The translations under genes were made by a program, and so were the position numbers. 64,000 nt of DNA from Rhizoctonia solani (taxonomy: Eukaryota; Basidiomycota; Agaricomycetes; Cantharellales; Ceratobasidiaceae), in NCBI RefSeq assembly GCF_016906535.1, contig NC_057382.1, forward strand, positions 930,001 through 994,000, read 5' to 3'. A model generated the notes under the pieces. The model had not been told where the DNA came from. It worked only from the letters and a program-made list of their open reading frames with translations, and made no database searches. Shown here one piece after another: positions 9,101 to 59,661 of the stretch. The number at the start of each line of letters is the position of its first letter. Position 1 is the stretch's first letter.

Positions 9101-9597
9101 GAATGAGTAAAGAACGTATGACCAGGAGTCAAGGAGTAATACCAGAGTTTTCAATAGGCAAAAAAGTCTGGTTGGATGGAAAGAACGTGGACCTTAGAAC
9201 CAATTCAAATAAGCTGGACCCAAAACGCCTTGGTCCCTTCAAGGTCACAGAAAAAATCTCCAGCCACGCCTACCGCCTGGAACTACCAGAAACTCTAAAA
9301 ATCCATGACGTGTTCTATGTTGGGCTACTATCAAAAAGCCACAAGTCACCCAGTCAGCCATTTCCAGAACGACCTCCCCCTGAGACAATAGAAGGGGAAG
9401 AAGAATACAAAGTCGAACAAATCATTGACTCTAAACGCCAACGGGGAAAATGGTTCTATTTGATAAAATGGAAAGGATACGGTCCGGAGGACAATTCATG
9501 GGAACCGGAGGAGCTATTGGAACATAGCCAAGAAGAGATCAAGCGCTTCAACCAAGCAAGACTCAGAAAGGCTTGTGACGCCGCCAAAAGCCTTTAA
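6191..9597 (+). pseudogene. pol: Retrotransposon Pol (PR-RT-RH-IN-chromodomain), frame-broken
   Basis: Protease active site [12 protein letters not shown] lies near 6345. RT spans about 6850-7290, with LDLRWGYNN and the catalytic YLDD box (7258-7269). RNase H follows from about 7680 (ETDASGVAMGA, FTDHRNLEYW). The integrase has a zinc-binding HHCC region (8340-8480) and all three DDE acidic residues (SYDFI, ISDWG, SDGQTERVN). It ends with a chromodomain (YKVEQIIDSK...WEPEELLE). The frame changes four times: at about 6434-6438, where the two frames overlap and a short family segment appears to be missing; at the C-rich run 7302-7309; at the T run 7499-7501; and at the C run 7587-7590. The block 7606-9597 is intact. 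As given, the copy could not make a full Pol, although its LTRs say it inserted recently. Confidence 0.9.
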
Positions 9598-27946: not shown

Positions 27947-28007
27947 GTTCGTTTTCATTTTCTTAATATAAAGGAACTAGCTGCTTATTTCTTCCTCTTT
28001 CACAGAT

Positions 28008-30034: not shown

Positions 30035-30087
30035 GTAAGTCCCGCAATTCCTCAACAAACCATCTTCTGATCGCCCAATGCGCACAG
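30035..30087 (+). other. Probable 5'-leader intron directly abutting the start codon of hemopexin copy 2
   Basis: GTAAGT at 30035 and ...CACAG ending at 30087, immediately before ATG at 30088. Copy 1 has the same arrangement (27947-28005), so the position is conserved between paralogues. Confidence 0.55.
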
Positions 30088-30764
30088 ATGTCCGGAGTCG
30101 CAGCCCTAAACATTGCCAAAAGCAACGAGACCTACTTCTTCCAAGGAGACCGATACGTCAAATTCAAATGGACACCAGGCACGACCGATGACGAAATCAC
30201 CTACGGCCCGACCGAGTTTGCGAAAGAATGGGCGTCGTTGAAGGAGGCCGGGTTCGGCTGGGTGGACGCGATCCTGCCTATTCCGGACACGACCACCGCG
30301 CGTACTTTTTCAGCGGCGACAAGTACGCACGGATCGAGTACGTCCCTGGTGCGCCGGGTGACAAGATTTTGGGTGGAGTTCGCCCGATCAAGGGTAACTG
30401 GCTGTCGCTCGACAAGGCTGGGTTCACCGAGGTCACTGCTGCGTTGCCTGTGCCTGGACGGAGCAACGAGGCGTACATTTTCAGTGGACAGCAGTATTGT
30501 CGCATCAAATACACCGAGGGGAAGATCGACGACGAGCTGCTCGATGGGCCGAAGCCTATCTCGGTTGGCTGGAGCAAGGTCGGATTCACGGATTTCGATA
30601 CGATTTTTGCTCGACCTGGTTCCGAAAACGGGGCCTATGTGTTTAGCGGAAGCGAATATTCTCAGATCAAAGTTAATGTCGGAGGATATGACGAAATTGT
30701 TAGCGATAAGCGTGAGATTGACCAGTACTGGCCGGCACTAGTCAGGCTGGGTTCTACTGAGTGA
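30088..30764 (+). pseudogene. Hemopexin-fold protein, copy 2, frame-broken as given
   Basis: Starts MSGVAALNIAKSNETYFFQG and is clearly homologous to copy 1 throughout, with repeats such as AYFFSGDKYARI, AYIFSGQQYCRI and AYVFSGSEYSQI. Compared with copy 1 there are four single-base differences in frame: a missing G near 30285 (CCGGACAC), an extra G near 30372, a missing C near 30387 (these two compensate each other, changing VEFAP to GGVRP), and a missing G near 30752, which replaces the AGFY terminus. All lie in short G or C runs. Either the copy is a young pseudogene or the assembly has homopolymer errors. With the indels disregarded it would be about the same length as copy 1. Confidence 0.75.
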
Positions 30765-37903: not shown

Positions 37904-40900
37904 TTACTTTCGCTCAAGGCTCGGACATAAGACTGACAAACTTATTGAGCAAACGGAATCGTGAGCTGAGAATAAAATAAAATATACCTTCTGCCTCCCT
38001 AAAATACCCTGTCTATGCGCTTCACGATGCCTTCGATCCTGAATTTCTCTCATAAGCCGCCTAACAGAACCAACACATGTATGACCTTCACCGAAGACCC
38101 TAATAAAGTCACCAACATTCAGGCTGAGACTATCTGCCTCCCAAACAAGACCAAGTTTTAAATAAGCATGTGCAAGGTTATTCATGCTTCTCAGTGTATC
38201 CGGATGATCGGTTCCCAGCACTTGCTTCTGTGTGTCTAGCACCTGAGTGTACAGTGCTCTTGCGTCCGCATATCGGCCCAGGTCGGAGTAAGCGTTTGCA
38301 AGGTTGTTCATGGTTGCCAGTGTATCGGGATGATTGGTTCCCAGGGCTTGCTTCCGTGTGTCTAGGACCTGAGTGTGCAGTGCTCTTGCGTCCGCATATC
38401 GGCCCAGGTCGGAGTAAGCGTTTGCAAGGTTATTCATGGTTGTTAGTGTATCGGGATGATCGGTTCCCAGCACTTGCTTCTGTGTGTCTAGCACCTGAGT
38501 GTACAGTGCTCTCGCGTCCTCATATTGGCCAAGGTAGTAGTAAGCGTTTGCAAGGTTGTTCATGGTTCTCATTGTATCGGGATGATTAGCCCCCAGCGCT
38601 TGCTTCCGTGTGTCTAGCACCTGAGTGTGCAGTGCTCTTGCGTCCTCATATCGGCCCAGGTCGGAGTAAGCGATTGCAAGGTTGTTCATGGTTCTCAGTG
38701 TATGGGGATGATCGGTTCCCAGAACTTGCTTCTGTGTGTCTAGCACCTGATTGTACAGTGCTCTTGCGTCCTCATATTGGCCCAGCTTGGAGTAAGCAAT
38801 TGCAAGGTTGTTCATGGTTGTCAGTGTATCAGGATGATTGGTTCCCAGCACTTGCTTTCGTGTGTCTAGCACCTGAGTGTACAGTGCTCTTGCGTCCTCA
38901 TATCGGCCTAGGTCGGAGTAAGCGATTGCAAGGTTGTTCATGGTTGTCAGTGTATCAGGATGATTGGTTCCCAGCACTTGCTTCCGTGTGTCTAGCACCT
39001 GAGTGTACAGTGCTCTTGCGTCCTCATATCGGCCCAGGTCGGAGTAAGCGTTTGCAAGGTTGTTCATGGTTCTCAGTGTATCGGGATGATTGGTTCCCAG
39101 CACTTGCTTCCGTGTGTCTAGCACCTGAGTGTGCAGTGCTCTTGCGTCTTCATATCGGCCCAGGTCGGAGTAAGCAGTTGCAAGGTTGTTCATGGTTGTC
39201 AGTGTATCGGGATGATCGGTTCCCAGCACTTGCTTTCGTGTGTCTAGCACCTGAGTGTGCAGTGCTCTCGCGTCCTCATATCGGCCCAGGTCGGAGTAAG
39301 CGTTTGCAAGGTTGTTCATACTTCCCAATGTATCGGGGTGCTCGTCACCTCGCATTTGTCTAAGTCTTCTTTCGATGTGTTCCTGAAATTGCTCCGCCTT
39401 GTCCCACCGCCCACGACTCATATATATCTCGTAGAAGTGCCGCAGATGGTCTATCCCAGTACTTTCAGTGCATTCCGGAAGTACCCTATCCACATGAAGT
39501 CCAACGCTCATTCGTACCATGACGGACTCTACACTATTGTCCATGCACCCAGAGACTGATATCGAAACTAGTATCTCAGCGCACTTCGCTGCTAGATCAC
39601 TTTCATACGGTATAACTGTACGGACCCAGTCCTGAACAAGTAGATGGATGCGATAAGCCTGATTCATACGATCGTACTCCAGTAGCGAGCATGATGCTAG
39701 CTCGTCGATGACCTGCGTGAATAGAAGTCCGTCCCATCCTCCACTTGAGCTCATGAACGCGCGTAGCGCCTCCTTCAGCTTTTGCTGTGCCAAATCCTCG
39801 AGCTGTGTCATCGGATACTTGGCCTTATATGATACAATAGCAACCGCCGCTCGTCGAAACATGTCGACTGTGATTCCAGTGTAATGCAAGTGGCCAATCA
39901 GCCAGAGCAGCTCCTGAGCACGTGAGCTAAGACCATCGTAGCATACGATCCAGGCGGTATATACAGTATGTCGGTAGTCGTCGGCCTTGATTGCGGCCGG
40001 CAAGTTGCTGTATGCTTCTAGCGCTCTCCGCTGCTCCCGCATGAATAGCGCTCTGTAGTCCGTAAGTGACATGTGTGGTGAGTTTCCTATGAACGACCCC
40101 GCGTGTACGATCCCGAGTGCGAAGTAACCGAGCTCCTGTAGAATCCTTTAGCACGGACGGCTGATTATGCGGTCTTTACGCACCCTAAGTAGGGCATCGG
40201 CACTCTCGGTCTCTTCTAAAGATAGTTCCCGATCATGTAGCCGTGCGCACTTGAGTAGCAATGACATCGCATCGTCCGGGTCCATACTTGATACGCTGCA
40301 CTCAGAGTTTTGCCCCCGCGCAAGTGTAGTCATGCCAGATAGCCGGGTGGTGATTATTACGCTGCCATGATTGCCTCGAGGGATGTAGTCACGAATCGAG
40401 ACCGACGGATCATCCGCACTATCCAACACAAGCAGCCAGGGCTGACGGTATGACTCAAGCCACTGAAGTGTAGATCGATGCGTATCTCCGAGCTTCTTGG
40501 CCGTGGCCACCTCTTGTAGTCCGGCTTCGATGGATTCACGGGTGCTTGAGTCGATGTATATGATCTCCTTCCATTTGCGCCGCGTTGTTTCTATGACCTT
40601 GAGTACTATCTGCGTCTTTCCTGCCCCTCCAAGCCCGTGTACGACGCACACTCTGCGCTCCACATCGCTTCCGACGATACATGACTCCATCCTGTGAAGC
40701 TTGAGCCTGCACCCTGTGAAAATGGAGCTGGGGGACGGGCAGTATTGAGCCACCGACACAACGTTTGGATCCCTAACGTAGGATACTCCAAGCTGGATCT
40801 CGCCATCTGGATGTTAAACACTCAGTCTTGTGCATATCATCAGGATAACGTTCTGATTCACCAATCTGTGCCGTGGATATAGTTGGGTTTCTCACTCGTA

Positions 40901-42070
40901 TCGCTTGTGCTGCTTTGTCGATTGTTTGTATGACTTCGAACATCCTCATGTATGCACGTGTATGCTCCGCTACCTCGCTTGGCTGGTCCCACTTGGACAC
41001 TTCAACGCTTTGCAATCCTTGATCAACGTTGAGTCGAAAGTATACTCCGTCGACTGAGCTGAATCGCCTTGCTATCTCTTCTGCCACCCTCTCTGCATCC
41101 TCTGCGATTCCTTTCATTGCTCCGATCGCAGCCGTTGGTAGAAACTGAAGGAATACCGGTCCATCTGGGATCTGTATCGTACTTGTATGACCGGTGCCTA
41201 TGCTTAGGGTGATTGACACATGTCTTCCTGGGTGTAGTCTCTTTACTTCGGCTAGCACATAAGCAAGGGGGTTGCTGCATCCAAGTCCTGCGTCAACAAA
41301 CGACTGCTTCAGAGGTGGGCTGCCGATGTCGAAGCTCTTGAACAGCTCCGGATGCGCCATGGTCGCGCACACGGTCTCCCATACCGTACACCTGGGGCCT
41401 TCGTTGGCGGTAGCAGGGTACGATCGAAATGCGGTAGGTATACCTGCCCTCATGTTGTGTCTTGACATGGCAAATACTAGGCTATAAAGTGGCATGTTAG
41501 CATCATCGCTATTATTTGGTGGTAGCTGACTTGCGTGCCGCACGGTGTGGTTAGATTTCTTTCCATCATCGGCTCATCCGGGTTTCCGGTTACGGTTTGT
41601 ATGGTGTTTCTGATCGCGTTCTTGAGCTTGGTGGTCCTGAAGGCACCTTTCCCGATCCATTTTCTTTCCGAGAACACCTCTTTCGCAACGCTGGCGTATG
41701 ACTCGATAGCCTCATCTATCCCCATGCGCAACCTTCCTAGCATACAGGCTTGGATGCTTTGTGTGATCATAGGCGTCAGGTTGGGGCTACGATATACCAA
41801 TGGAAGTGACATACGCGCCTGTGCCAGTGCCTGCGATGAGATCAAAGTACTGATGAGGCTTCGGGGGGGAGTCGAGCTTCTCGAGGTGTTGTATCCGCTT
41901 CATTAACTCTTCTAGGATTAAAAGCGCCGATAGCCCTCGCACACCCCCGCCATCTACATGTGATCGCTGACATCAGGGTTCTGTTTGAGGGATAGACTCA
42001 ATGAGGTGATGATACCTATACACAGTATATTCAAGCCTTTAGGAGAGGTACCTGCAGTTGTGTCAGACAT
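37904..42070 (-). CDS. NLR A: patatin - NB-ARC - TPR protein
   Basis: Six exons (42070-42016, 41953-41815, 41756-41535, 41481-40862, 40806-40184, 40135-37904) give 1296 residues in frame. The patatin domain has the oxyanion motif ILCIDGGGVRGLS (from about residue 15). At the nucleophile elbow it reads IAGTGTGA (residues 58-65), with Gly where Ser is expected; the later Asp motif is VDAGLGCSNP. The NB-ARC domain has P-loop GLGGAGKT (403-410), Walker B LVLD (471-474) and SVIITTR. A helical linker follows, then about ten 42-residue kinesin-light-chain-type TPR repeats (about 816-1236), nine of them nearly identical. This is a fungal STAND/NLR architecture: a TPR sensor, a nucleotide switch and a patatin effector. 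Intron 41482-41534 begins GCAAGT. It lies 779 bp downstream of MLKL-like gene A on the same strand. Confidence 0.92.
38092..39349 (-). repeat. 126-bp tandem repeats encoding KLC-type TPRs of NLR A
   Basis: Ten units of 42 codons, consensus HPDTL-TTMNNLANAYSDLGRY then EDARALHTQVLDTRKQVLG. Units differ at only a few positions (T/R, H/Y, N/I), and the last is divergent. The periodicity also creates long antisense ORFs on the + strand, which are not genes. Confidence 0.9.
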
Positions 42071-42849
42071 GCTTGTGTTATGATTCCTTGCAGCGAATGA
42101 AAGGGAAGACAAGGGGTGGTTAGCAGGAGTGAACGATCAAAGAGTCAAAGTTGAGTTCCGGACACGAGGCATCGGCGCTATTTGAACACCGCTTAACCGG
42201 ACACATGTGGTATTGTTGTGGAATTTCAACGAGTCTCCATAATCTCTACCTCCAGACTTTATCTCTCACTAATCGTTCAATTCATATAGTTTCGCAGGAA
42301 GTGAAGCGAAAAAGGTGTGCGAATTGCTAATTCGAGGTAGAAGAAACTATAAGAATCAAAGTTACAGGCACGCAAGGGAAGCAAAATCCATTTGGTCCTG
42401 TAAAGTACGCCTGTAGTAAGCGCCGAATACCAGACGGTATGATAGAAATCACCGACCGCGGTCGTAAGATTCCGGATGCTACATGGTGGATTATTCATGC
42501 GTACTCGATTGCAAGCTTCGCATTATAACTGCAAAATGATGAACTATGACATAATTAGAGACTGTCCGCGCGACTCCCTTTGAAGGCTTGTTCATGCCCC
42601 CTCTGTATCCGGCTACCTGAACCCGGCGCATTATTTCGTTGTGTCCAGACAGAATAAGATATGGGGTTGAACTAATCTGCATTCATTCACTGTTCGCATG
42701 CGTTCCAACTACGCATGCAATCATCACAACTCTCCAATACATACCCCACCGACACCACTCTCATACATAGCATCATTCAAGCTCAACTAACATACACAGC
42801 ATTAGTACATCCACATTCACGCATTGTATATCCACAACGAAACTCCATC
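42071..42849. other. Intergenic region between MLKL-like gene A and NLR A
   Basis: No gene supported. It is the promo­ter side of NLR A and the 3' flank of pseudokinase A (same strand). Confidence 0.5.
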
Positions 42850-45504
42850 TTATCCACTCTTACTACCTTCTGCCTCGGGCATCTTCGCAATCCGCTTCAG
42901 CTCGACCAGAACCTCATCAATACTCGGACGCTCCGACGGCTCCATGGCCCAGCACTTTTCCAACAGCGCCCACATCTCGTCCGGCCTGTATGCGTACTCT
43001 TCGAACTTGGCGTGGTGCTCTCGCCGGGGCGGTCCCTTGCTGATTTGGAGAATGATCGTCATCGCTTGTTTGTGCGTGTGGTAGGGGATTGACCCGCTGA
43101 TGATCTGTAAAGGTCGTTTTGTAAGATAGGCCACTTCCATGCAGTTTGTTCGCTATTGCTTACCTCGAGCGCGGCCATTGCCCTACAAAGTGAGAATATG
43201 CATAAACGGTGAAGGAGATACAAGTAGAAATACGACCTACCACCCCCAAACATCACACGGCGTTTCCAGTGGTGGGTCGTCAACAAACATTTCAGGTGCC
43301 TAGAACAGATAATCACTAATTGACAAAACAAAAATTAACCGACGAATGAAACGTACCATCCATCGCTGGGATTCGGTCTTGCCTGTCATCACCGCAGGCG
43401 GAATTTTGTTGTTCCCCACACTCTCGAGCGCCTATAATGGTAAAAATCAGATGCAAATTTATGAGATGGGCGACTCCATTAACTGTTACCTTCGTAAGCC
43501 CGAATCCTCCCAGGATACCTCCCTCACTATCTGTGATCAGTATATTATCCCCTCTCATCCCAGAATGCACCACCGGCGGATCTCGGTTATGCAGATACTG
43601 GAGGCCCTTGGCAGCGTCCGTAATCTAGAGCGTGAAGTTCGGGATGAGTCGAGCCAGAGTCGTGTAGGGGTCAAGGGCTACTTACGATACGAAGCATGCC
43701 CCTTTTCATGCCCTGATTATTCCTGTACTGCTTCAGGAACGATATCTAAAGCACACACGCATCAGGACGAGGAACTCCAATTAAAATCGTTTATACACAC
43801 TGCGTCAAAGTTCTTCATCAACGGCGACACCATATACCTATGACCAATTCGATTCAGTATAGCCCATAGTCCGAAGTTTGACAACTTACAGCTGAAAATG
43901 GTTGTCACCCTCAAACGACTCCATCCCTATACCATAGAACGGCAGCGTATAGTCCGAACGAAACTCGGACCACAAGTTGGCAATTCGCAAGAACCGCGTC
44001 GCATACTTCTCCACATATTCCTTGTCCGACATTCCGATCCTGAACACCTTCTTCGCCACCTTCTCTCCGCCCAAGAACGAGGCCTGGTAGATGTCGCACG
44101 TAATTCCAGTCTTGATCGGGATCGGCGCATCAAGGTTACATTGTTTGCCGAGAAGAAGCTTGGGCGGCAGTTGAAGCTTCGTGACTGATAGAATGGTGCG
44201 CACGAGCTGCTGGGCATCTACATACGTAGCTACTGTCGTGGTTGACTGGTCTTGAAGGATCTACAACCCAAAGTCAGCTCGACTGGCATTAACATGATGG
44301 CACTTGGACGAGGCGTACCATAGACTTGTCGTTCAGCACTTGCTGCAAGGCGTCAACCATCCTGTTTGTCTTTTCCAGTAGTTCGCCTTGGTTCGAGCGT
44401 AGTGCATCAAAGTTGACGTTCATCTTCTCGAGCTCTCCTCTCAGGCGCTGGAGTTCACTCGATTCGCGCCTCTGAACGGCCTGATATTCGCCTGTCCATT
44501 GGTCTTGAGCCACTTCGGCCGTGAACTATGAACAAATTCAGAATGGCTGCCAGATATCGGAAGAAGCACTTACATTGAACAACGACAAGCACGCATCCAG
44601 ATCAGCAAAGAGCATGCGAATCTCGTCACTGATCGATTGGTAAAGCACCAACGCGATCAGCTCGTTCATTTCGTTGTAGTATCGTGCGCGTTCTTCGATT
44701 CGATTCAGAGTCCTGCCAATATTCCATGCGTGAGTATCAATAAGAGAGACATGAATATGCCACCTTACTCTTGGAGGACCGCTGCTGCCTCGTCCAGGTT
44801 AGGGTACTGTTCCTTCCCATAGTTATCGACATGTGCTCCTGCGATGCGCATAACCATCACGCATCGACCTCGCAGTAGCTTCCATTGGTCCCTGTCTGAG
44901 CATGAGCCACTCGGCTAGCATTGACCAACAGATTCACACACTTGTTAACCTTTGATCGCTCTACGGCTTGGAACACCTGCTTCAGGCAGCCACATAGCGG
45001 GCCAATGGCAGGTATAGGCGCAATCTCCTTGGTGACTTCGGAGAGTGTGAGTGCACACTGGGTGGCCAGCGATGATAGGGCCCGGTTCTCATTTTCGGGT
45101 ACGGGCGGAACATAAGATGATGTGCGAGTGCGAGAGTGCGAATTTCGGCGTGCGTGTGACGGCTCGGGGGTTAGTCTGGAAGATGCTGTCGAAGTGGTGC
45201 CAGTGGGCATAGGGACTGGCATAGACGCCGGTCGGGACTGAGATGAGTTGGTTCCATCTGTCATGTCTACATCTTGTTGGACGCCTTGCTGGGTGGCCAC
45301 TTGGGGAACATTTACTTGTGGGACAGCCAAGTTCACAGTCGATTCAGGGCGGGAACCTCCACGGGAAGGAGGGCGATCACTATTACTGGCCGATGGCGAT
45401 CCGGCTAAGGAAAGTAGTTAAATCATATCAATATTATCAAGCCAAATTAATAACATACAGAAAATGCTCCTTAACGACTGGCGAAAGCCTCCTTTCGAGC
45501 TCAT
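42850..45504 (-). CDS. MLKL-like protein A: N-terminal helical bundle + pseudokinase
   Basis: Thirteen exons (45504-45459, 45404-44942, 44891-44769, 44712-44574, 44525-44319, 44260-43890, 43837-43801, 43745-43686, 43624-43490, 43431-43357, 43299-43241, 43182-43164, 43104-42850) give 662 residues in frame. N-terminus MSSKGGFRQSLRSIF, then a disordered Ser/Pro linker. Residues about 123-257 form a helical bundle (VTKEIAPIPAIGPLCGCLKQ, WKLLRGRCVMVMRIAG) and 258-326 a helical brace. This resembles the MLKL N-terminal domain plus brace. The kinase fold (327-662) keeps the beta-3 Lys (VAKKVF), the catalytic-loop Asn and the APE motif. It has HSG instead of HRD (G504) and GFG instead of DFG (G522). 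It should therefore be catalytically dead and work as a switch for the bundle. Confidence 0.9.
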
Positions 45505-46793
45505 GGCGTCGACACGAAATGCTGGTGAAGGTTGTGGAGGGATTGGGTCGGCTGGACGATACAGTGATGTACATTGCTTGAGCGAAAGTATGCACAGCCA
45601 TGGCGGCGTGTATACCGTCCAGTTGTCTGGATGACAATCCCTTCTAAAGGAAGTTAAGAGGCAAAGGGCAGTGTTTGCGAATTGGAACCAGACATCGGCG
45701 TTTGTCACTTTTCCGAGCACTGCTTAGTAATCATATAACATCATCCCTGCTGGACCTTGCCACATCGTGCGCCACATGACGGATTCCTGCCGACGAAACA
45801 ACCAGTATACTGCAGACTTGTATCTTTGTTCCCTCAGATGTATATTCGCCGAGTGGTTCTAGACATAGGGGCTATGGGACATTTACTCGTTGCCATCAGT
45901 CGTTCACTTCAGCTGTCTATGCCATACGATCGCATAATTAATTTCCATGTCAAAAAAACCAGAAAAATCCATGAGTATTATTTTTGGAGAAATAAAGCCT
46001 GATGCCAGTGGGTGATCTTTCGTACTGGGTTCGCACACACAGCTCAGCGCAGAAAGGCAAGATTAGGACACTTGATCCCATGAGACTGTGAACTAGGGAA
46101 CCTTCCTGGAATCGAAATACGATTGGGCATTGAAACAGTGCAAAACTATCCTGCCACGTATTCTGTATGTAGCTAGACGAAGGTCTCCTGTTGGAGGAAC
46201 GTGTGGACCAGCGCGCGTATTATTCGTGCTGCCCCATAAAAAAGAAAGTTTTAGGGGTTTTGTTTGCTTTCGCCTTATTCACAAATGATGATAGTTTAGC
46301 ATATATGAAAGGCGGAACTTCGAATTGACTTGGTGAGATCCAATGAACAATCGTCGGCGACAGCTATAGTAGGCATCTGAACGGGTGAAGGTATATCATT
46401 GGAATTCCGAGGGTACGTTACGAATCGGGGCAAGGAAGTAACAAAGAGATAGAACATGGTCAGGCGGGTATACATTATTAGAGAGCGTGGAGACTGAAAG
46501 GTAAGATGAGACACTGCGCTTTTTGGTTATTGATCCGGTCTGTACCATTCGAAAGGATACTTTTACGAATCCTGAAGTTAACTCGAAGGGGACCCACGTT
46601 CGCTAAAGGCCTGGATGTAAGATTAAAGAATCTGGTAAGTGACTCGAACCATAAACTTGAAAAGACGACATACAGCGGCATCGGTGGTGTCAAAAAGATA
46701 AAATAAGGGAGGGGGAATGCGAGAGAGAAATCAAGAAGAAAGGAAAGAGGGAGGAAGAATAAGGGACGGGGATAGGAAACTGGGCAAGTCTAG
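45505..46793. other. Intergenic region between NLR B and MLKL-like gene A
   Basis: 1.29 kb without a supported gene. It is the boundary between the two tandem modules. Confidence 0.5.
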
Positions 46794-49700
46794 CTAATGA
46801 GTTCCGCGAAGCGGCGGATGGCTTTGGCGTAATGTGTTTGTGGTTGTTAGTGTGTCGGGATGGTCGCTGCCCGGCACTTGCTTCCGTGTGTTTAGCACCT
46901 GGGCGCTCAGTGCTCTTGGGTCATCGTACCGGCCTAGATGAGAGCAGGCCTTTGCAAGCTTATTCATAGTCGACAGTGTATCACGGTGGTCGCTGCCTAG
47001 CACTCGCTTCCGCGCATCTAGCACCTGGGCATAAAGTGCTCTTGCATCATTGTATCGACCCAGGTTGGAGTAAGCGTTTGCAAGGTTATTCATGGTTGCC
47101 AGTGTATCGGGATGGTCGCTGCCGAGCACTCGCTCCCGTCTTTGTAATACCTGGATGTACAGTGCTCTTGCGTCCCCGTATCGGCCCGGCCCGATGTAAG
47201 AATTCGCAAGGTTGTTCATGCTTCTCAGTGTGTCGGGATGATCTCTGCCCAGCACCCGCTCCCGTCTGCGTAGCACTTGGGCATGTAGCGCCCTTGCGTC
47301 CTCGTGTCGTCCCAGGTATGAATAAGCGTTTGCGAGGTTGTTCATGGTTGCTAGTGTATCGGGATGGTCTCTGCCTAGTACTCGCTCGCGCCTGTGTCGC
47401 ACCTGGGTGTGCAATGCTCTCGCGTCCTCGTATCTGCCCAGGTAGGAATAAGCGATTGCAATGTTATTCATGGTTGCCAGTGTATCGGGATGATCGCTGC
47501 CCAGCACTCGTCTCCGCTTGTGTAGCACCTGGACATGCAATGCTCTTGCGTCCTCGCTTCGGCCTAGGTGAGAGTAAGCAATCGCAAGGTTGTTCATGGT
47601 TTCCAGTGTATCGAGATGGTCGCTGCCTAGCACTCTTTTTCGTATGCGTAGCACCTGGGCATGAATTGCTCTTGCATCTTCGTATTGCCCCATATGCGAG
47701 CGAGCTCGTCCCACTTCATGCATGGACGTCAGTGTATCCGGGTGCTCGTCACCCAAAGCCTGCCTGAGAGCCTTTTGAGCGATGATCTGTAGCTGCTCGG
47801 CCTGCCTCCACTGTCCTCTACTCGCATACACCCTAGAGAAATTTAATGCGTGCTCTACCCCAACCCTTTCAAGGCTACTCCAAACTACTTTGTCGATATG
47901 AAGTCCAATACTCATTCGGAATACAATGGCATCCATAGTGTCATCCGTACACCCACCGACCGATATCGAGAGCAACATCTCCGCACATTTTGCTGCCAGA
48001 TCGTGTTCATATGGTACTACCGTGCGGACCCAGTCTTGCACAAGTGCATGAATGCGATAAGCTTGATTCATACGGTCGTACTCCAGTAGCGAGCGCGATA
48101 CGATCTCGTGGATAACCTGTGCGAATAGGAGTTCTTCCCATTCACCTTCCGAGTTTATGAATGCGCCTAAAAACTTTTGTAGCTTCTTTTGTGCTAAATT
48201 TTCAAGCTTGGTAGTGGGTAGCCTAGGATTATATGCCACGATACTGATGGCCGCTCTTCGAAAAATGTCGACGGTGATTCCGGTGTGATGCAAGTGCGCA
48301 ATTAGCCACAGAAGTTGTTGAGAAAGAGGTCCGATGCCATTGTAGCACATCAGCCAGGCTGTATACACCGTGTGTCCATAGCTGTCGGCCTTGACTGCGG
48401 CAGGTAGTTTGCGATAGGCTTCTAGTGCGCTTCGTTGTTCACCCCCAAGCAGAGACCTGTATCTGGTGATTGACATATGAGGCGAATGCCCGATAAAAGA
48501 CCCAGCCTGTACTATTGCAAGTGCAAAGTAGCCAAGCTCCTGCCAATGCCATTAATATCGGTACCCGAGCACAGTAGCCTCACTTACTTTAACCAGCTCT
48601 CTGGAGCTCTCTTCTTCTTTCGGCGATAGCTTCTGGTCATTTAGACGCGCACACTTGAGCAGCAAATTTAGCGCATCTTCCGGGTCCATACTTGATATGT
48701 TGCACTCAGAGTTTTGCCCTCGTGCAAGTGTAGCCATGCCAGATAGCCGGGTGGTGATGATTACGCTACCGTGATTGCCTCGAGGGATGTAGTCACGAAT
48801 CGAGACCGATGGGTTATCTGCGTTGTCGAGCACAAGCAGCCATGGCTCACGGTACGACTCAAGCCACTGAAGTGTAGATCGATGCGTGTCTCCGAGCTTC
48901 TTGGCCGTGGCCACCTCTTGTAGTCCGGCTTCGATGGATTCACGGGTGCTTGCGTCGATGTATATGATCTCTTTCCATTTGTCATACGTCCTTTCGATCA
49001 CTTTGAGTACCATCTGTGTCTTGCCAGCCCCTCCAAGCCCATGAACGATGCAAACCTTGAGCTCCCTGCCAGCTCCCATGATACACGACTCGGTCATGCG
49101 CAGCTTATGCTCGCACCCCGCAAACATGGGCGACGGTGCCGGGCAACGTCGAATAGTGGAGAGGGTGCCAGGACCTTCGGCGCGCTGTATTGCGACTTGG
49201 ATCTCGCCATCTACGAATCAGTAAGATAGCTGACCTCATGGTGAGTTAAAAACTTTAGCTTACTTATCTGAACCGCAGGTAAATTGTTCCTCCTTAGGTG
49301 TATTGATTCCGCTGCTTTATCGATTGTTTGCGTAACTGTTTGTATCTTCATGTATGCGTGGGTATGTTCTGCCACCTCGTCCAATTGGTCCCATTTGTCT
49401 ACCTCAATACTCTGCAGTCCCTGATCAACGCTAAGTCGAAAATAAATGCCATCCGTCGAGTTGAACCGCTTTGCCATCTCCTCCGCCACCTTCTCTGCAT
49501 CCTCTGTGATTCCCTTCATTGCCCCGATCGCAGCTGTCGGTAGGAATTGGCGGAATACTGACCCATCTGGGATCTGTATCGTACTTGTATGACCGGTGCC
49601 TATGCTTAGGATGGTTGATACATGTCGTCCTGGGTGTAGTCTCTTTACTTCTTCCAGAACATGAGCAAGAGGGTTGTTGCATCCGAACCCTGCGTCAATA

Positions 49701-50467
49701 AACGACTGTTTCAGAATTGGACCGCCGATGTCGAAGCTCTTGAACAGTTCCGGATGGGCCATGGTCGCGCATAAACTCTCCCATATAGTGCACTGCGGTC
49801 CTTCGTTGGCAGTAGAAATAAGATCGAAAGGCTGTGGGAATGCCGCCCCTCATGTTATGCCTTGACATGGCGAAAACCAAGCTGGGAGGCTATGTCTTAG
49901 AGTTGATTATATTTATTAGTGGACATTGACTTACGTGCCACACGGTGCGGTCGAGTCACTATCCATCATCGGTTCATCCGAATTTCCGGTCACGTCGTGT
50001 ATAGTGTTCTTGAGCGACTCCTTGAGCTTGGTCGTCCTGAAGGTGCCTTGCCCAATCCACTTTCTTTCCGAAAACACCTCTTTTGCGAGCTTGGCATATG
50101 AATCGATAGCCTCATGTACTGACATGTGCAGCCTTCCTAGCATACACGCTTGGATGCTTCATATGCTCATAAGTGTCAATGGTATTCTCTAGATACTGAA
50201 TGGATACCACATACGCGCCCGTGCCCGACCCAGCTATGAGATCAAAATACTGATGGGGTTTTGGGGGAGAATCAAGTTTCTCAATGTGCTGCAACCGCAT
50301 CATTAGCTCTTTCAAGAGCAAGAGGGCCGATAGCCCTCTCACGCCTCCGCCATCTACGCGTGGACGCTAGCATCAGGATTCTACCCGAAAGGTGAATACG
50401 ATGGGAAAATACCTATACACAGTATATTCAGGCCTTTTATATGGGCGCTAGCACTAGCACCAGACAT
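46794..50467 (-). pseudogene. NLR B: patatin - NB-ARC - TPR protein, paralogue of NLR A, frame-broken in patatin domain
   Basis: Same six-exon plan as NLR A: 50467-50413, 50353-50215, 50156-49935, 49881-49264, 49210-48588, 48539-46794. Exons 1, 2, 3 and 5 have exactly the same lengths as in A (55, 139, 222, 623). Exon 4 is 618 nt instead of 620, and the frame is lost near 49813-49821 after PTAFRSY. Elsewhere the frame is open, with ILCIDGGGVRGLS, IAGSGTGA (nucleophile Ser again replaced by Gly), DAGFGCNNP, P-loop GLGGAGKT and LLVLDNADN. About seven 42-residue TPRs follow that are less uniform than in A, ending in a shortened last unit. A 2-nt deletion or an assembly error separates the patatin half from the NB-ARC-TPR half. 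Confidence 0.85.
46850..47750 (-). repeat. 126-bp tandem repeats encoding TPRs of NLR B
   Basis: About seven units with consensus DHPDTLATMNNLANAYS-LGR and EDARALHAQVL-RRERVLG. They are more divergent from each other than the units of NLR A. The antisense ORF at 46976-47767 is a by-product. Confidence 0.85.
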
Positions 50468-51345
50468 CTTATGGGCTTATTCTTCCGTAGTGAACGAACT
50501 GGAAAGTAAGAGGGTAGTGGTACGAATGAATGACGAGGCCCAGGGCTTAATTTCGGGCCTCCACTATAGATATCAGCGCTGCCTAGCCAATGACATCACT
50601 CCTCTACAAAAGACCCTGTGGTTCGTGAGCGCCTGGGGGGGCATGGTTCTCCGTACACTCGCCAAGCTCCACAGAACCTTGGCTAGATGGAGTTTATGCT
50701 ATTTTGGTAGAATTATCAATCCAGCTTAGGTAAGGCACTTGATGATTAAGCCAATCGTGCTGTGAGCCTCGGTGAGCGTATGGAGTATCATGGGCGCTCG
50801 TGAATGCTCGCGAACCCCAGAGGTTTTTGTAGAAATCTCCTCGGGTCCAGACAGTTTTGATGACCCTTGTTTTTCTTCCTTTCTTTTCGGTGCACACAAC
50901 CTCCTGGCCCTGAGACACCGTGTAAAAGCTCTTTCGCTGCAGATATTTGAATTTTATTAGTATACACTATCTTATCGTTTCTTGCCAGCACATATGCGCG
51001 CTTGACCCTGTGCGACGCATCCCGGAGTAGAATAAACACCTAATACATATATTCCAGTAACCTTTACGTGCAAGCGGCTAAAGTTATATCGAGTGGGCTG
51101 ATCCACTTTGCTCTATGAGTGAGCCCTGAAAGGTGGGATACACAACACATGAAGTAGTTGAATTTGTGCTTTATTGCCTATGTATGCATGCATAATATTA
51201 ATACATGGACTTTAAAACCTGGTTCTGAAAGCGAAAGTAGTCAACTGCGACACGACAAAATAATGCTAAAACTCAAAACAAATCGTATAGTAGACTTGGG
51301 TATATCCACACCTCTCCGTGAGCCCAGCTACCTCAGAAAACGCAT
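50468..51345. other. Intergenic region between MLKL-like gene B and NLR B
   Basis: 878 bp, no gene supported. Similar in size to the 779-bp spacer of module A. Confidence 0.5.
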
Positions 51346-53871
51346 CTAGGCCCTCCGTTCCTCCATCCCTCCTATCTTCTTTAGGTCTGCAACTACCTCG
51401 TCCATACTTGGCCTGTTCTCAGGTTCTTTCGCCCAACACCTTTCTAGCAGCGTCCACATTTCGTCAGGTCGATACGCGTATATGTCGAATCCCGGATGGT
51501 CTCTGCGCCTTGGCGGACCTTGGTTGACCTTTAGAATGATGTTCATAGCTTGCTTGTGCATATGATATGGTATGCTGCCGCTGACGATCTTTGGAAAGTG
51601 ATGAGAAAACCGTTCGCAATTATATATACTAAGCACGTACCTCAAGAGCAGCCATAGCCCTACAAAAGCGAATTGCTAGTTAGCTTTTTCCAACATGAGC
51701 TCATGTTTCGACTCACCATCCCCACACATCACAAGGTGTCCTCAGCGGAGGGTCATCCTCGAACATCTCTGGCGCCTGCAACAACCGGTTTATTATACAT
51801 TTATAATCGCCTTGCTTTACTCACCAGCCAGCGCTGCGACTCGGTCCTGCCCGTCATGACAGCCGGAGGAAGGCTGGTATTCTCAACACTTTCCAACGCC
51901 TGTGGACATACTTGTTAGCGGAAGCTTTTGAAAATTAGAGACTCGCCACGCACCTTTGTAAGTCCAAATCCGCCAAGAACTGCACCTCCACTGTCCGTGA
52001 TCAGTACGTTATCTCCCCTCATTCCGGAGTGAACAACCGGCGGGCTACGGTTATGTAAATATTGAAGCCCCTTGGCTGCGTCGGTGATCTAAAAGAGTCG
52101 GTAAGCTAAATTATATGTAGTTGAGCTGGTAACTTACTATTCGTAGTATGTTCTTCTTCATTCCTGCGTTGTTTCTGTACTTGCTAAGGTACGTCATCTA
52201 ACCACCAAATAAATTAGCTATAATCCATGGATGTATAGGGTATATGCATACAGCATCAAAGTTTTTCATCAGCGGCGACACCATATACCTATCATTTGTT
52301 GTCAACTCGGTGGTGTTCGCGCTAACTGATAAACATTGCTTACAACTGGAAGTGATCATTCTGCTCAAACGACTCCATCCCAATTCCGTAGAATGGCAAC
52401 GTATAGTCCGACCGGAGGTCAGACCATAGACTTGCAATCCGCAAGAACCGCGTCGCATACTTTTGGACATATGCCTTGTCCGACATCCCAATCCTGAACA
52501 CCTTCTTCGCTACTTTCTCTCCCACGAGAAATGACGCCAAGTAGACGTCACAAGTGATCCCAGTTTTGATCGGGATGTTAGTGTCGGGTATACATTGTCG
52601 GCCGAGCAGGAGCTTGGGAGGTAGCTGGAGCTTGGTGACTGCAAGGATAGTACGAACGATGCGTTGTGCGTCGTCGAATGTGGCGGCAGTGGTTGTAGCT
52701 GGGGCTTGCAGAATCTTGAGGAAATACGTTCAATGGGTACCGTCTTGGAATCAACGAGCTGACTACTCACCGAAGACTTGTCGTCGAGTACTCGCTGGAG
52801 AGCATCGACCACCTTGCTTGTGTTCTGTAGTATTTGCTCAGAGCTTCTTCCGATCGTATCTATCTTCATGTCCATTCTTCCCAGTTCATTTTTGAGATGT
52901 TCGAGCTGCTGCGACTCCTGCTTTTGCACCGCTCGAAACTCTGAAATCCATTGGGATTGGGCAATGTCAGTCGCATACTGCCGATGTCATGTCAGTATTC
53001 TCGCAGTGTTCGGGATTTTAGGAAACTCACAGAGAACATGCCAAGGCACGCGTCAAGGTCACCAAACAGCGACTGGATTTCGTCGCTAATGTCTTGATAT
53101 AATAGGAAATTGAGAACCTCATTCATTTGGTTGTAGTGTTGAGCGCGTTCTTCGATCTTGTTGAGAGTTCTATTTAGTCAAAAGAGTAAAGTCAGTATCA
53201 GAAATATATCAAAACTATGCGGCCTACTCTTCGAGTAGTTTCGCAGCTTCTTCAAGCCCAGGATAGTGATGATGTCCGTTATTCATTACTTGCGCTCCGG
53301 CAATACGCATTACCATCACACATCTGCCCTGTAACAGTTTCCATTGATCCCTATTCGGAGTACATGGCTTGAGTCTTAAATATTCGAAGAAAATAAATCT
53401 GCTCACTTGTTTACTCGTGTGCGCTCCACAGCCTGAAATACAGCAGTCAAGCATCCTACTAACGATCCAATACAAGGCACAGGTGCAATCTCGGCCACCG
53501 CTTGCGCCAAAGAGAGCGTGCATTGCACACCGAGCGAGGCAAGCGCCCGAGTTTCGTTCTCGGGAGTAGGGACGTGGGATGCAGATGACGCACGGGAACG
53601 AGACGGTTGGGCTGGAAGCGACTCGGAGCTTGCCGCGTGGACTTCGATAGCTGGTACCCCTCCACCAGAAGGATTCGTGGGTACAACGCGACCATCGCCT
53701 GAGTGTGATGGTGTGGTGGAATGAGAAACAAGCGAGGATGGCCGTGGAGGACTACTGGTTTTGGAAGAGGAAGAGGATTTGCCACCTGTGGATCATCGTT
53801 AATAGAACCCACCAAAGCCGTTGAATACACATACCAAATAACTTGCTTATTCTTTTGCGTATCCGATGCAT
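51346..53871 (-). CDS. MLKL-like protein B: N-terminal helical bundle + pseudokinase
   Basis: Thirteen exons (53871-53835, 53785-53407, 53350-53228, 53169-53031, 52977-52771, 52714-52344, 52288-52252, 52197-52138, 52088-51954, 51899-51825, 51775-51717, 51659-51641, 51588-51346) give 627 residues in frame. Exons 3-12 have exactly the same lengths as in gene A (123, 139, 207, 371, 37, 60, 135, 75, 59, 19). The N-terminus MHRIRKRISKLFG is very basic and could contact membranes. The bundle, brace and kinase fold align with A throughout. VAKKVF is kept. HRD is HSG (G473) and DFG is GFG (G491), the same two catalytic losses as in A. APE and the C-lobe (DEMWTLLERCWAKEPENRPS) are normal. Confidence 0.9.
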
Positions 53872-55264
53872 TGTCTTAAAATGAGCCAAACGCTGGGTGG
53901 TAGGAAGTGGCGGAAGTTGTTGCCCCACCTCTCGATATATAAATACACAACCATTACCTGTGAGGAACAGGAAGGGTTGTCATTTCCAGAACTAGATAAA
54001 GGAAGCGCATCCGGCACCTATTCTGTGACAATTATGCTGTGTTGTTGTGATTGGGATATTTAAGGAGATAGTTGTCAGTGGAGGCAAAGGGATGATCGAT
54101 TAGTCATTCTTGCCAAACATTGGTGGCACTCTCGGCGTTTACCCCAAGGGCCGAGGGATGGGCTCCAAGCTGGCAAGCATACGATTGTCAACGCACCCTC
54201 CCCCCCATAATAATCAAATGATACTAGGTTCGAGTCAATTGGCGCCGTATGAGTCCCAGAATATCAATGTGTCCCCTGGATATCTTTCAAGGTGCGTCTG
54301 TTGGGTTACAGTGAAGTTGGCAAGAACCCTGACAACTGCACTTTAGGCATCACAGCCGCTCTATCAATTCATGCACTTATTGACAGCCACACACTCACTG
54401 CCACGAACCAGTCCTTCACAACTCTTTTACACAGCTATTCACGTGCGCATATGATGGCCTTCTATGACGATTATGGGATTTATTTCGCAACTGAAATAGT
54501 ATATACCTAATATGAATCAGGTTCGTTTTGGAACAAATTCGACGCAAGTTCATCTTTTTAGTCTTCCTCCTCTCTCCCTATTTCCTTCGACAGTTTATCG
54601 AGAGCAGTACCATATCACCCATTTATTCTCGTTGGCCATCTGCGGACTATACGATGAACTTTTATATGATTCATATATAGAGGCTTATTCGTTCGATGAA
54701 AACACTGGATGAGTATATCCCTCAAAGATGCATATAAACATGTACTCCTGCCTCGTCTAGATTTTTTGGTTCAAGGACCAAGTTCAAACACCGATACTAA
54801 CTTCCACCCTGAACACACGCCGGGACTTCAGGCTATCATCATCTCATAGTACAGCTGACGCACTGGTCCGAATTTCTCATGCAGTGATCGACTGTCATGA
54901 ATTCGTGTACCAGATTTACCTCGAGTCCCCCGTAATCCAGCTTAGGACGAAAGTTTGCTTTAATCGAGGGCAATGCAGTACACTGGATCGCACAATCTTT
55001 GGGATTATCCGACCTCACGACTTACGTTTCAAGCTCCGGTTCTGGGGTGGATGTAGCCAGAGGAGGGGTCGCTGATGTGCGTTAGTGAGTCGATGGGTAT
55101 TTTCCAGCGACCAACGGACTGGCTCTCACCGTTTGTGTCGCTATTGGTACCATAGCGGTTCTTATAAAAATGGTTCCATTACGCAAAAAGTCAGTTAGAA
55201 TCGCTAAAGTTGTAGAGTTATTTCGGAGTTAACGTTCGGACTCTTAAATATGATTTTATACTAG
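53872..55264. other. Intergenic region between divergent MLKL-like gene B and the kinase array
   Basis: No gene supported. It probably contains the missing 5' exon(s) of the plus-strand kinase gene, which I could not place. Confidence 0.5.
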
Positions 55265-56505
55265 GTAGCGATCAAATCAGTTCGACTCGAGGTTCACGGC
55301 GCCGCCAGTTCACTGTTGGTCGCAAAAGTCCAAAAGGCACGGGAACGCACTATGCATTTTGTCATCAGCTCGTCTCATTTCTCAATTTCATAGAAAATAT
55401 ACCGAGAACTAGATATATGGAAAACTCTACAGGCTCAGCAGCGTCATCCAAATATACTAGAACTACTCGGTATCGTTGAGACCAGCCTTGAAGGTGCACC
55501 CCGAAATCTCATATTTCCATCTTCGGTTAGCGAGCTCTGCAAAGGAAACTTATCCGAGGTGGGTGCATTACTCATTTATGAATATCTTTTTCTTTTTAAT
55601 TTCCCTGATTCTGATAGTATATGACTTTGCCTGAGGCTCGGTCTCGGAGGATTCAGTTGGTAAGACGGAAGATAGTAACAATCATGAAACTATGCACCCA
55701 TATCTTCATGGTGCATATATGCAGCTTATAGATACTCTGGAGGGCCTATCTCACATGCATAAGCTGGGCGTTGTACATGGCGACCTGAAAGCGGTTCGTC
55801 AGTCTAGAGATAAAAGCAACGTATCCCCTAATCCAATATTCGCTAGCCCAACGTCCTGGTCACAGAGGAAGGCATAGCTAAACTTTGCGATTTCGGACAT
55901 TCGCGTTTCGTGGATACCGTACCCTCTTATACAGAACCGACCGATTCGTCTTCCACATTTCAAGCAACCACAAGGTACATGAGTCCAGAATTATTCACGG
56001 AACTAGTCGCTCGACCCTCTTGTCCATCGGATATTTGGGCTTTTGGCTGTGTTGCACTCGAGGCAAGTATTTGAGTTTTATCTGATGATCGTTGGAACGG
56101 CAGGAGGCTAAACGATCCACAATCTGGGGCTTTTTTTTTTTTCTTTAAGATTCTCAGTAAACTCCGCCCGTATCATGTCATAGCCAGCGAGCATCGGGTT
56201 TCTGTGGCTATAATACAGGGGAGAACACCGAGTACACGTCCAGAGCCCCCTTACGCGGCTGGCTGTCTTAACGATAGTCTCTGGGCCGTGGTCAAAGCTT
56301 GTTGGAGCATAGACTACCGAAACCGTCCGACGGCTGCGCTTTTACTAGAGCGAATCAAGGGGATGATTCGACAAGGATTGATATCGACCAATGCTGCGAC
56401 GCCACTCCGCCCGACCACTGATATCGCATCAGCAAATGTGGAGTGGCCAGAGAGCTTGGAGGATTACTCGGGAAGTTTGACAAACTACTCAAAAAGTTGA
56501 TTTCA
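55265..56505 (+). CDS. Protein kinase domain 1 of a plus-strand kinase array (motifs intact)
   Basis: Exons recognised: 55265-about 55340 (VAIKSVRLEVHGAASSLL, with the beta-3 Lys); from about 55391 (KIYRELDIWKTLQ...HPNILELLGIVE); an exon ending MTLPEARSRRIQL; 55730-55795 (LIDTLEGLSHMHKLGVVHGD then LKA); 55852-56062 (NVLVTEEGIAKLCDFGHSRF, TTRYMSPELF, SDIWAFGCVALE); and 56150-56505 (ILSKLRPYHV to the C-lobe RNRPTAALLLERI). VAIK, HGD and DFG are all present, so it is likely an active TKL-like Ser/Thr kinase. The 5' start was not found. Intron 56063-56149 begins GCAAGT. The frame ends at 56498-56500 unless a further intron joins it to domain 2. Confidence 0.7.
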
Positions 56506-56589
56506 AGCAAAAATATGGCAGATATATGGATGTGGGTCTTTGAAGCTGATTGGCCGTGGCTTAGGTTGATCTGTCTTCAAAAGATACCG

Positions 56590-57832
56590 CATCCAAGGAG
56601 ATTCGGCTCCGACTTTTCTTCAAACGGACGAACGCAGGAGATTCGATATGGTAAAAACTGATGATCGTTTAAAGAGATTTGTGGTCAAAGTTCCACGTTT
56701 ACCCGGTGGGCTCTCTACCACCTCGCCTGAAGATGATCAATTCCGTCAGGTTCAGAAGCCAATTTCATGTATCAGCTATAATGTATGACTAATATTCTTC
56801 CAGTTCCTTCGTATCGCAGCGAAAGAACGATTCGAACTAGACCACGAGAACTTGGTTGATTTAATTGGGCTTGATAAGAGCTACGGGAGATACCCTGGTA
56901 TTGTTCTAGAGTATTGCCCCTACGGAGATCTAACCCATGTAAGTCACTATAGCGTGTGGTATACTATAGCTGACTTTGTGGCTTTGCTAAACGATTGACC
57001 GTCGACTAACAGTACAAGGGACTAATAGTTCCATATGAACGGGACCACCAACGATACGTGAGCTTAGTCAAGATTCTATCGAGCATATCTATTCTTAGTA
57101 GCCAAAGTTAGGGAAATTAGTCAAGGACTTCAATATCTTCATAATCTATCATCGGCCCTAGTGCATGGGGACCTGACGCCGGTTAGTGACTTCAATTCCG
57201 TAAATACGAATTCATATACTACTTGGATATCTAGGATAATATTAGTCGATGGACAAGGAACATTGAAACTTAGTATCATCAGCTTCGCACGCGTTGCGGC
57301 AAGTTTGCCCGTAAATACCCAAGTAGCCGCTCGCCCTGAAAGCGCTATCTCTGCCCGGTATACAGTCCTGAGTTATTGGTGGATAATCCCGAAGCCAGTC
57401 CTGAGTCCGATATGTGGTCGTTTGGATGTGTGGCGTTCTGGGTAAACATTGTAATTGATCTCGATACTTATGCATAGGCTAACAGTGTGATAGATTTACA
57501 CAGATTTACACCCATATCCAAACCTGAAAAAGGAATATGATATCGTAAGAGCAATCGAAAGTGGAACGCTCCCAAATGATATGGACAGCATTCGAAATAT
57601 CGAAGCTCTTGGTTCTCATCTTAAGACCGGAGCGGACTCACCTTGGATAACCAACGGTACCCTTTCTCATATCCTTCGTTGCTGGGACTCCCAAGCCAAG
57701 GCCAGGCCCTCGGCCAAGGATATCATCAAACATTTGGATCTATTGCCAAATACAGGCGTAGTGAGATGGAGGCCACCTTCGGGCGTGCCGGATCTTACCG
57801 GGCCGTTCAAACTCCGGGGGGTAGGAGCATAA
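56590..57832 (+). pseudogene. Kinase-like domain 2 (degenerate activation motif, frame-broken)
   Basis: Pieces: TDERRRFDMVKTDDRLKRFV to ...DQFRQ; FLRIAAKERFELDHENLVDL to EYCPYGDLTH; YKGLIVPYERDHQRY; VREISQGLQYLHNLSSALVH with HGDLTP; then DNILVDGQGTLKL. The DFG position reads ISF, so metal binding should be lost, although HGD is kept. Near 57358-57362 the frame shifts by an apparent TA duplication between ...ISARY and SPELLVDNPEAS...DMWSFGCVAFW. The C-lobe 57508-57832 (DLHPYPNLKKEYDIVRAIES, CWDSQAKARPSAKDIIK) is open. It may be a separate gene or the middle part of a three-kinase protein. Confidence 0.6.
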
Positions 57833-58099
57833 TTGGATGGTCAGCCGGAACCTGGCGGTGAGTCGAAACTAGCTCTATAGTATTATTAAAACTATTTAAG
57901 TAACACATGCTAGGCGCATATATACTCGTAGGGCACAAGGTAAAACTCCGGATATTATCAAGCTGTGGTGGTGGAAGTAAGTCTATATACACTATAGGGT
58001 ACACCTCGTCATTTAGTTAAACGTTCTTTCCCGTGTACAAAAGGGGGGTTTACTCACGTGGCTTCTTCCGCAAAAACCTGGATGTATGTTCTAAACTAT

Positions 58100-59196
58100 G
58101 CTTGAGCTTTTACCTTATTCAATATATGTTTTTCTCGGGCAGGTAACCGTGAAGTCCGCAAAATCGGATAAAGGCGAATTCGAAGACCCGGTACAGCAGG
58201 TAGACGTTTGGTCACATTCCTTCGCCAATAGTTATATCTGACATAGCTTTCTGTAGGTATATCGACATGAATAACTCTGCTGAACCAAATGAAACATACA
58301 AACGTTATTTCAATACTGGGCTTCACCACAGATCCCACTCACCTTGGGTCTCACCTAAAGGTCCCGGCGCTAATTACAGAGTATTGCGCAAATGGAAGAC
58401 TACGTGAAGTAAGTATTAATTCTTTACATTCGCCAGTTTTGATGGATTCTATGCCCTTACCGCTTTGTTCTAATAGTATTGTCCAGCCAATAATGAAACT
58501 ATGACTGGTATCGAACGAATAGCCATAGTAGGTCCTTTTCTTTAACCTGCCACAAACCTGGAGATGGCAAATATGCTACCTAGATTCGAGGAATTGCTCA
58601 AGCGCTAAAATATATTCACGACGATATCCCCGAAGGCTCGATAGTTCATGGGAATCTTTCAATGGTATCATATCTTACTTTATCTTTCAAATTGATTGCC
58701 CATTCATCGAGGACTCAGGACTCTGTGTTGTAGATACTACTGGAACACCGAAGTTGACCAATTTTGAGTTTGGCTGCCAGTACCAACACACAGACAACCC
58801 CGTAAAGGCTCAGGTGTTGAATGCTCCCCCTTTGGCATCCCACCCCACAAGATGGGACGCACCCGAACTCTTTCAAGACGTATCTGATTCTCGTGCGCCG
58901 TTTCCAACCCGCTATACCGATCTGTGGTCATTTGGATCATTGATTATGTTTGTAAGTTTAATCGTATTTGACCAAAAGTAACATACTACGACTAATTCAT
59001 AGATTTATTCTTGTAAACTTCCTTATGCTCAGAGTGAACTCCCTGGAGCAATCGCTCGCCTCGTAAGCGGTGAAAAGCCCTACGCGGAGGACGACTGCGC
59101 CTATGAAATTAGGAGTCTGGCTAGTTCATTATGGGAGGACATTCCATATCAAAGATCCTCGGCTTCCAAAGTTCTGGAAATGATTGAGGTCTTATA
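58100..59196 (+). pseudogene. Kinase-like domain 3 (pseudokinase, frame-broken)
   Basis: Recognised parts: LNQMKHTNVISILGFTTDPT to EYCANGRLRE; YCPANNETMTGIERIAI; IRGIAQALKYIHDDIPEGSI with VHGNLSM; DTTGTPKLTNFEFGCQYQ; WDAPELFQDVS; TDLWSFGSLIMF; and a C-lobe ending VLEMIEVL with stop 59194-59196. The HRD position is HGN and the DFG position is NFE, so both catalytic Asp residues are gone. Just upstream of LNQMKHTNV the frame meets a TGA (near 58270), as if one base were missing in the preceding codons. It shares the domain layout of domains 1 and 2, suggesting local duplication followed by decay. Confidence 0.6.
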
Positions 59197-59661
59197 ATCT
59201 GTCATTTTACATTCACCTTTTATAGCATATTGGTACTATATAGATCCTAAAATCACATTCACCAGAACGGTGACAAATCATTTGCAGATCCTTCTGACAC
59301 ATGCCACCACAGGTCGCTTATGGTTCCAAACAGTTCTTAGTGTCTTGCTATTGCCGGCTATGAATCAAGCGCGAGGCTCTCATCATGTGAACTACATCTA
59401 GTAGGCTCTAGAACCTTTGTCCAGCACACAAGCGGCCAACTCGGTTGAATACTCACGTTCTCACACCCTGGCAAATCTATGTAGATCAACCGAGAACAAC
59501 AGTTTATTTTTTGCTGGCTCGTCAAAGACTCACACGTGTGCTGGCTCAAGTATTTAACGAGCCCAAGGTCCTGTAACCTAGTGTTCGAGAACAAACTACC
59601 TGTCTTGCCCGAGAACCTACCTATCCATATTTTAGCCACCCCCCCCCCCGCAACTTGCATA
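59197..59661. other. Intergenic region
   Basis: No gene supported. Contains a C10-type homopolymer around 59641-59649 close to the start of the next gene. Confidence 0.5.

Follow-up and report, generated by a model that had tools for sequence, protein, structure and literature searches.

Metazoan MLKL consists of an N-terminal helical bundle, a brace and a TKL-type pseudokinase that keeps the VAIK lysine and has lost the HRD and DFG aspartates. In fungi, MLKL-related domains and pairs of effectors with NOD-like receptors (NLRs) are also known. Comparable fungal clusters of two or three genes have been described, HELL domains occur on kinase or pseudokinase proteins (PMC12881547), and in the HET-S/NWD2 and HELLP/PNT1 clusters an NLR gene adjoins the gene of a bundle-type effector (PMC12881547, PMC10197012). 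The characterised pairs of NLR and bundle effector in the papers cited here signal by amyloid. BaMLKL domains form the N-terminus of basidiomycete NLRs and have an MLKL_NTD-like bundle with additional N-terminal helices (PMC9815663), while Neurospora PLP-1 has the domain order patatin, NB-ARC, tetratricopeptide repeats (TPRs), and the death that it causes depends on patatin activity (PMC12881547). Here we analyse a 64,000-nucleotide window of Rhizoctonia solani (contig C13 of a 40.7 Mb genome in 16 contigs) in which two genes for MLKL-like pseudokinases, PKu and PKl, alternate with two genes for patatin-NLRs, NLRu and NLRl. The parts of such a system are already known; their combination and the pseudo-patatin did not turn up in the literature surveyed by titles and abstract openings.

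The splice models bear out the alternating order of four minus-strand genes that the first-pass annotation had given. Positions are those of the window.

51346..53871, minus strand: PKu, MLKL-like pseudokinase of 627 aa in 13 exons (splice model; public R. solani protein P0020, 627 aa, 99.8% identity)
46794..50467, minus strand: NLRu, patatin-NB-ARC-TPR gene, frame lost in patatin exon 4 (splice models; NB-ARC match)
42850..45504, minus strand: PKl, MLKL-like pseudokinase of 662 aa in 13 exons (splice model; public R. solani protein P0001, 662 aa, given as 100% identical with one residue different on reading; AlphaFold2 model of P0001)
37904..42070, minus strand: NLRl, patatin-NB-ARC-TPR receptor of 1296 aa in 6 exons, with an unbroken frame (splice model; Pfam)

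The models also reproduce the equal lengths of exons 3-12 in the two pseudokinase genes (37, 379, 123, 139, 207, 371, 37, 60, 135, 75, 59, 19 and 243 nt in PKu; 46, 463, 123, 139, 207, 371, 37, 60, 135, 75, 59, 19 and 255 nt in PKl), the lengths of 55, 139, 222 and 623 nt for exons 1, 2, 3 and 5 of NLRl and NLRu alike, and the spacers of 878 bp (PKu-NLRu) and 779 bp (PKl-NLRl). Of the two receptors, NLRl is an open STAND NLR gene, and NLRu is not intact, its frame being lost in exon 4.

The patatin domain of both receptors lacks the catalytic serine. By sequence, the closest solved relative of the NLRl patatin is CapV, a CBASS phospholipase effector (8zr9, E 5.5e-9); CapV retains the serine, which aligns to a glycine in NLRl. 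Neither NLRl nor NLRu has the GxSxG nucleophile of an active patatin-like phospholipase. The positions in the window and the loci read elsewhere in the genome, where patatin-NLR loci were defined by a patatin with NB-ARC/TPR-type homology, are as follows.

41823..41825, minus strand: glycine codon at the catalytic serine position of NLRl, GTGTG (read; aligned to the CapV 8zr9 serine; family alignment)
50223..50225, minus strand: glycine codon at the catalytic serine position of NLRu, GSGTG (read; family alignment)
Both C13 copies, C1:1705k, C6:763k, C7:349k, C7:363k and C9:1377k: patatin-NLR loci with glycine at the serine position
C7:1751k (L039, about 270-2540): degenerate patatin-NLR locus with glutamate at the serine position and stops in its frames
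C11:74k, C1:1665k, C3:2316k, C12:850k and two at C16:2482k: patatin genes bearing the serine

Thus 8 of 8 patatin-NLR loci in the genome are without the serine, and the other patatin genes read keep it in 6 of 6 cases, with no NB-ARC/TPR match around these six in the 3 kb fetched for each (20 kb at C16). In an alignment of 122 sequences (NLRl, NLRu and 120 listed of 212 relatives), the nucleophile position holds glycine in 120, a gap in one and serine in one, P0204 (GTSTG), the sole serine bearer. NLRl retains the glycine-rich loop and the dyad aspartate; the dyad column holds aspartate in 39 of the 122 sequences and glycine in 77. On these alignments the patatin domain of this NLR family is a predicted pseudoenzyme, which is a new observation here, and the annotation of patatin-NLRs of this family should change given the family-wide loss of the serine. 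No description of a dead patatin in fungal NLRs or of a Rhizoctonia MLKL-like pseudokinase was found in the literature surveyed, judged by titles and abstract openings. Since the death caused by PLP-1 requires patatin activity, NLRs of the present kind, which share its domain order, would not act in quite the PLP-1 manner. If their own effector is dead they would need a partner, and the best candidate for that role is the adjacent MLKL-like protein.

The remaining domains of the receptors are those of STAND NLRs. A Pfam scan of residues 1-900 of NLRl finds patatin (PF01734, 2.5e-16, 60.9 bits against a cut-off of 27.7), NB-ARC (9.2e-6, 25.5 bits against 23.5) and TPRs including TPR_12, and the P-loop GLGGAGKT is intact by reading. 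For NLRu, Pfam finds patatin in the first 160 aa, and NB-ARC is above its cut-off at the locus. In the stretch of NLRl that was read, nine TPRs of 42 aa have a mean pairwise identity of 0.86, and NLRu has seven with a mean identity of 67%. Fungal NLR repeats are classed as highly conserved at an internal identity of 85%, and positive selection on such repeats is reported in Podospora (PMC4986451).

The pseudokinases were said to have the MLKL layout of N-terminal bundle, brace and pseudokinase, and this holds on the sequence matches, the P0001 model and a fold comparison of the relative P0098. TNNI3K, B-Raf, RIPK1, RIPK2 and MLKL are among the sequence matches listed (60 of 74), and Pfam finds a kinase domain in both PKu and PKl. 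Both are TKL-type pseudokinases that, as in metazoan MLKL, lack the HRD and DFG aspartates, keep the VAIK lysine and conserve a Thr/Ser in the activation loop before APE. A four-helix bundle with a brace is found, with MLKL at ranks 1-4 among the solved structures compared with the N-terminal domain fold of P0098, although for a helical bundle the Z-values by themselves do not settle the match. The AlphaFold2 model of P0001 has a pLDDT of 80, and in a structure alignment of the full model the matches were taken up by ordinary kinases and bear on the kinase fold, not on the bundle. The Pfam family MLKL_N (PF22215) is present in the precomputed annotation of relatives such as P0021 and P0027. 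Its curated cut-off of 27 bits is not reached by PKu (23.2 bits) or by the N-terminal piece of PKl (13 bits), and full-length PKl gives no match. A search of the genome with this profile gave zero matches, probably because short exons were searched one by one.

Unlike metazoan MLKL, these proteins have a long disordered leader and extra short helices before the bundle, and they form a multigene family that adjoins NLR genes and has no known kinase activator. The extra helices are shared with BaMLKL, but the bundle here lies on a separate pseudokinase protein without an amyloid motif by reading. Compared with HET-S/NWD2 and HELLP/PNT1, the neighbouring effector carries a pseudokinase, and neither protein has an obvious site for an amyloid motif: by reading, the NLR patatin domain begins about 14 residues in and the pseudokinase stops just after the kinase fold. 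Judged by this reading of the architecture, an amyloid route appears unlikely. Two relatives from Ceratobasidium and R. solani, P0082 and P0094, carry an MLKL-like pseudokinase and a subtilase (S8) domain in one model. A Ceratobasidium gene model, P0090, joins a pseudokinase to TPR-like repeats, either as a true fusion or as merged neighbours.

The architectures, the substitutions in the pseudokinase and pseudo-patatin, and the adjacency of the genes here and in one other record are computational observations. From these we tentatively propose that an NLR sensor with a dead patatin kills through the MLKL-type PKl and PKu, in a fungal self/non-self or antiviral death locus, a possibility that in our view falls short of an even chance. 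NLRl would be the sensor, with its near-identical TPRs reading a ligand and its NB-ARC acting as the switch, and its patatin would perform no lipid hydrolysis by the usual Ser-Asp mechanism, serving instead for docking or oligomerisation. The executioners would be PKl and PKu, whose pseudokinase may keep the N-terminal bundle inactive via the brace. The bundle would be released once the pseudokinase meets the assembled NLR or is phosphorylated on the conserved activation-loop Thr/Ser, and it would then permeabilise the membrane. We infer that the NLR activates the pseudokinase, that the latter acts on membranes and that cells die, and likewise what the biological trigger is. A wider generalisation, in which an NLR clade with a dead docking patatin has passed killing to an MLKL-type pseudokinase, possibly with an adjacent RIPK3-like kinase, as an amyloid-free two-component necroptosis-like system of basidiomycetes, appears unlikely; such a system may be the basis of the Rhizoctonia hyphal killing reaction. 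If the proposal is true, a full MLKL architecture together with a dead NLR effector would amount to an animal-like switch in fungi, and the locus would be a concrete candidate for basidiomycete somatic incompatibility, a process termed poorly understood in an excerpt of PMC8229728.

The pairing of the two kinds of gene bears on the proposal. With seven loci, the chance of a random point lying within 6 kb of a patatin-NLR is 0.002, the two C13 pairs not being independent of each other. In another R. solani record a pseudokinase lies directly upstream of a patatin-NLR, P0120, which is about 70% identical. P0120 starts with MFDDDPPLRTPCDVWGWAMAALE, the peptide of pseudokinase exons 11-12 (96% identical to PKu), and continues directly with the beginning of the patatin; this leading peptide differs from the matching stretch of P0009, a protein of the PKl clade, and both lie on 126424-bp contigs. 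If the genes are orthologous, the same-strand order with the pseudokinase upstream of the NLR arose before these lineages separated. Both kinds of gene, whether adjacent or apart, are also carried by contigs of 1712930 bp and 1407196 bp.

Several results weigh against the proposal. The genome has four close pseudokinase genes (E 4e-59 or better) and three weak matches, and only 2 of the 4 close pseudokinases and 2 of the 8 patatin-NLRs are in paired loci, all within the C13 cluster. A chimera of pseudokinase and NLR occurs in 1 of 120 NLR models, two pseudokinases whose contigs have the same length of 7341 bp leave no space for a whole NLR between them, and NLRu hits an early stop whichever of two exon-4 acceptors is used; its relatives P0121 and P0129 are open where its frame breaks. 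In addition, joint duplication of pseudokinase and NLR finds no support in synonymous divergence, spacers, clades or exon lengths, and we rejected it. As for the unpaired genes, contigs C1, C7 and C9 carry other NLRs without a close pseudokinase, and on C6 some 250 kb separate the NLR from the closer of the two pseudokinases. In the flanks fetched (about 4 kb or more per side) there was no NLR match at the other two pseudokinases and no pseudokinase match at five other NLR loci. A length-shifted protein search for fusions of the two gave none in 5 matches; the sole bearer of a close pseudokinase was P0235, a 1584-aa R. solani protein with a different N-terminal part.

A rival reading is that two independent immune-type families share a fast-evolving cluster, the NLR signalling elsewhere and the pseudokinase having its own activator, which we regard as just as probable as the proposal and likewise short of an even chance. 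It is favoured by the unlinked majority of patatin-NLRs (6 of 8), by the two unlinked close pseudokinases and by the subtilase fusions P0082 and P0094, which hint at proteolytic activation and other activators of pseudokinase relatives. The duplication history points the same way, as the pseudokinase duplication seems older than that of the NLRs. Synonymous sites are saturated between PKu and PKl (proportion of synonymous differences, pS, 0.82) and unsaturated between NLRu and NLRl (pS 0.42-0.67 in four stretches). Inside the NB-ARC, at 40184-40806 and 48588-49210, the NLR pair has tracts of low pS (0.06-0.16) that are likely due to gene conversion, and gene conversion could be an alternative cause of the younger look of this pair. 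A quick tree, built without bootstrap, places PKu and PKl apart, in one clade of 14 rows (13 from R. solani or the window and P0022 from Ceratobasidium) and one of 13 rows, all R. solani. The clades of NLRu and NLRl are sisters (100/99), and P0120 comes next to them (84/53). Alignment of the spacers and of the stretches upstream and downstream scores no higher than chance, the observed score being reached by 37, 22 and 30 of 100 shuffles, respectively. Identical exon lengths were rejected as a sign of recent duplication because they recur in unlinked paralogues: lengths of 123, 139, 207, 371 and 75 nt in the pseudokinase at C6:512k (5 of 6 sought), 123 and 139 nt in that at C6:2113k (2 of 6) and 139 and 222 nt in the NLR at C6:763k (2 of 4). 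Three further NLR loci inspected had none of the lengths 139, 222 and 623 nt. Against independent families stand the direct same-strand neighbourhood here and in the other record and the dead patatin, as the NLR then has no obvious effector within itself. The first-pass annotation is confirmed in part as an observation and supported in part as an interpretation.

Plant NLRs sense changes in kinase decoys, and a pseudokinase adjoining a receptor could similarly be what a foreign effector or an allelic partner acts on, as bait or as guarded target, with the NLR sensing the change and the pseudokinase not killing. Between PKu and PKl the kinase-like part has indeed diverged less than the bundle (nonsynonymous divergence, dN, 0.147 vs 0.319). 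However, bundle and brace of the MLKL type are kept complete in the family, and a bait would have no need of them; we consider this explanation quite unlikely.

The gene on the other side of PKu raises the question of a kinase activator.

55216..56500, plus strand, limits approximate: divergent kinase-like gene, first domain active-looking by reading (VAIK, HGDLK, DFG; Pfam Pkinase 2.3e-11, one exon)

One or more kinase-like genes at 55216-59200 (plus strand) face PKu, first readable about 1.3 kb from its start; the later stretches are degenerate by reading and have no Pfam match. Opposite-strand kinase-like matches are also found upstream of the pseudokinase at C6:2113k (L020, about 430-2220). 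That this kinase is a RIPK3-like activator and the NLR a bystander is nevertheless very improbable: there are at least 146 exon-level kinase matches genome-wide, so that chance neighbours are plausible, and no such neighbour was seen at the remaining close pseudokinases. We rejected the divergent kinases as a conserved partner, as the two copies, only about 26-28% identical over a single stretch, are not closely related. The gene is possibly an extra component of the locus.

Finally, it is highly improbable that the patatin is still active through another residue and that NLRl kills alone as PLP-1 does, since the fold, glycine-rich loop and dyad aspartate that NLRl retains are set against the family-wide glycine at the nucleophile position and a dyad aspartate kept in only the minority of relatives counted above.

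Elsewhere in the window, open reading frames at 4651-9597 (plus strand) are those of a gag-pol long terminal repeat retrotransposon by reading (reverse transcriptase, integrase and a chromodomain-like end). The gene at 15715-20493 (minus strand) has the look of an adenylate-forming reductase, with AMP-binding and NAD_binding_4 matches, and 27981-30764 (plus strand) holds a pair of similar hemopexin-repeat open reading frames, the first by Pfam match and the second by reading.

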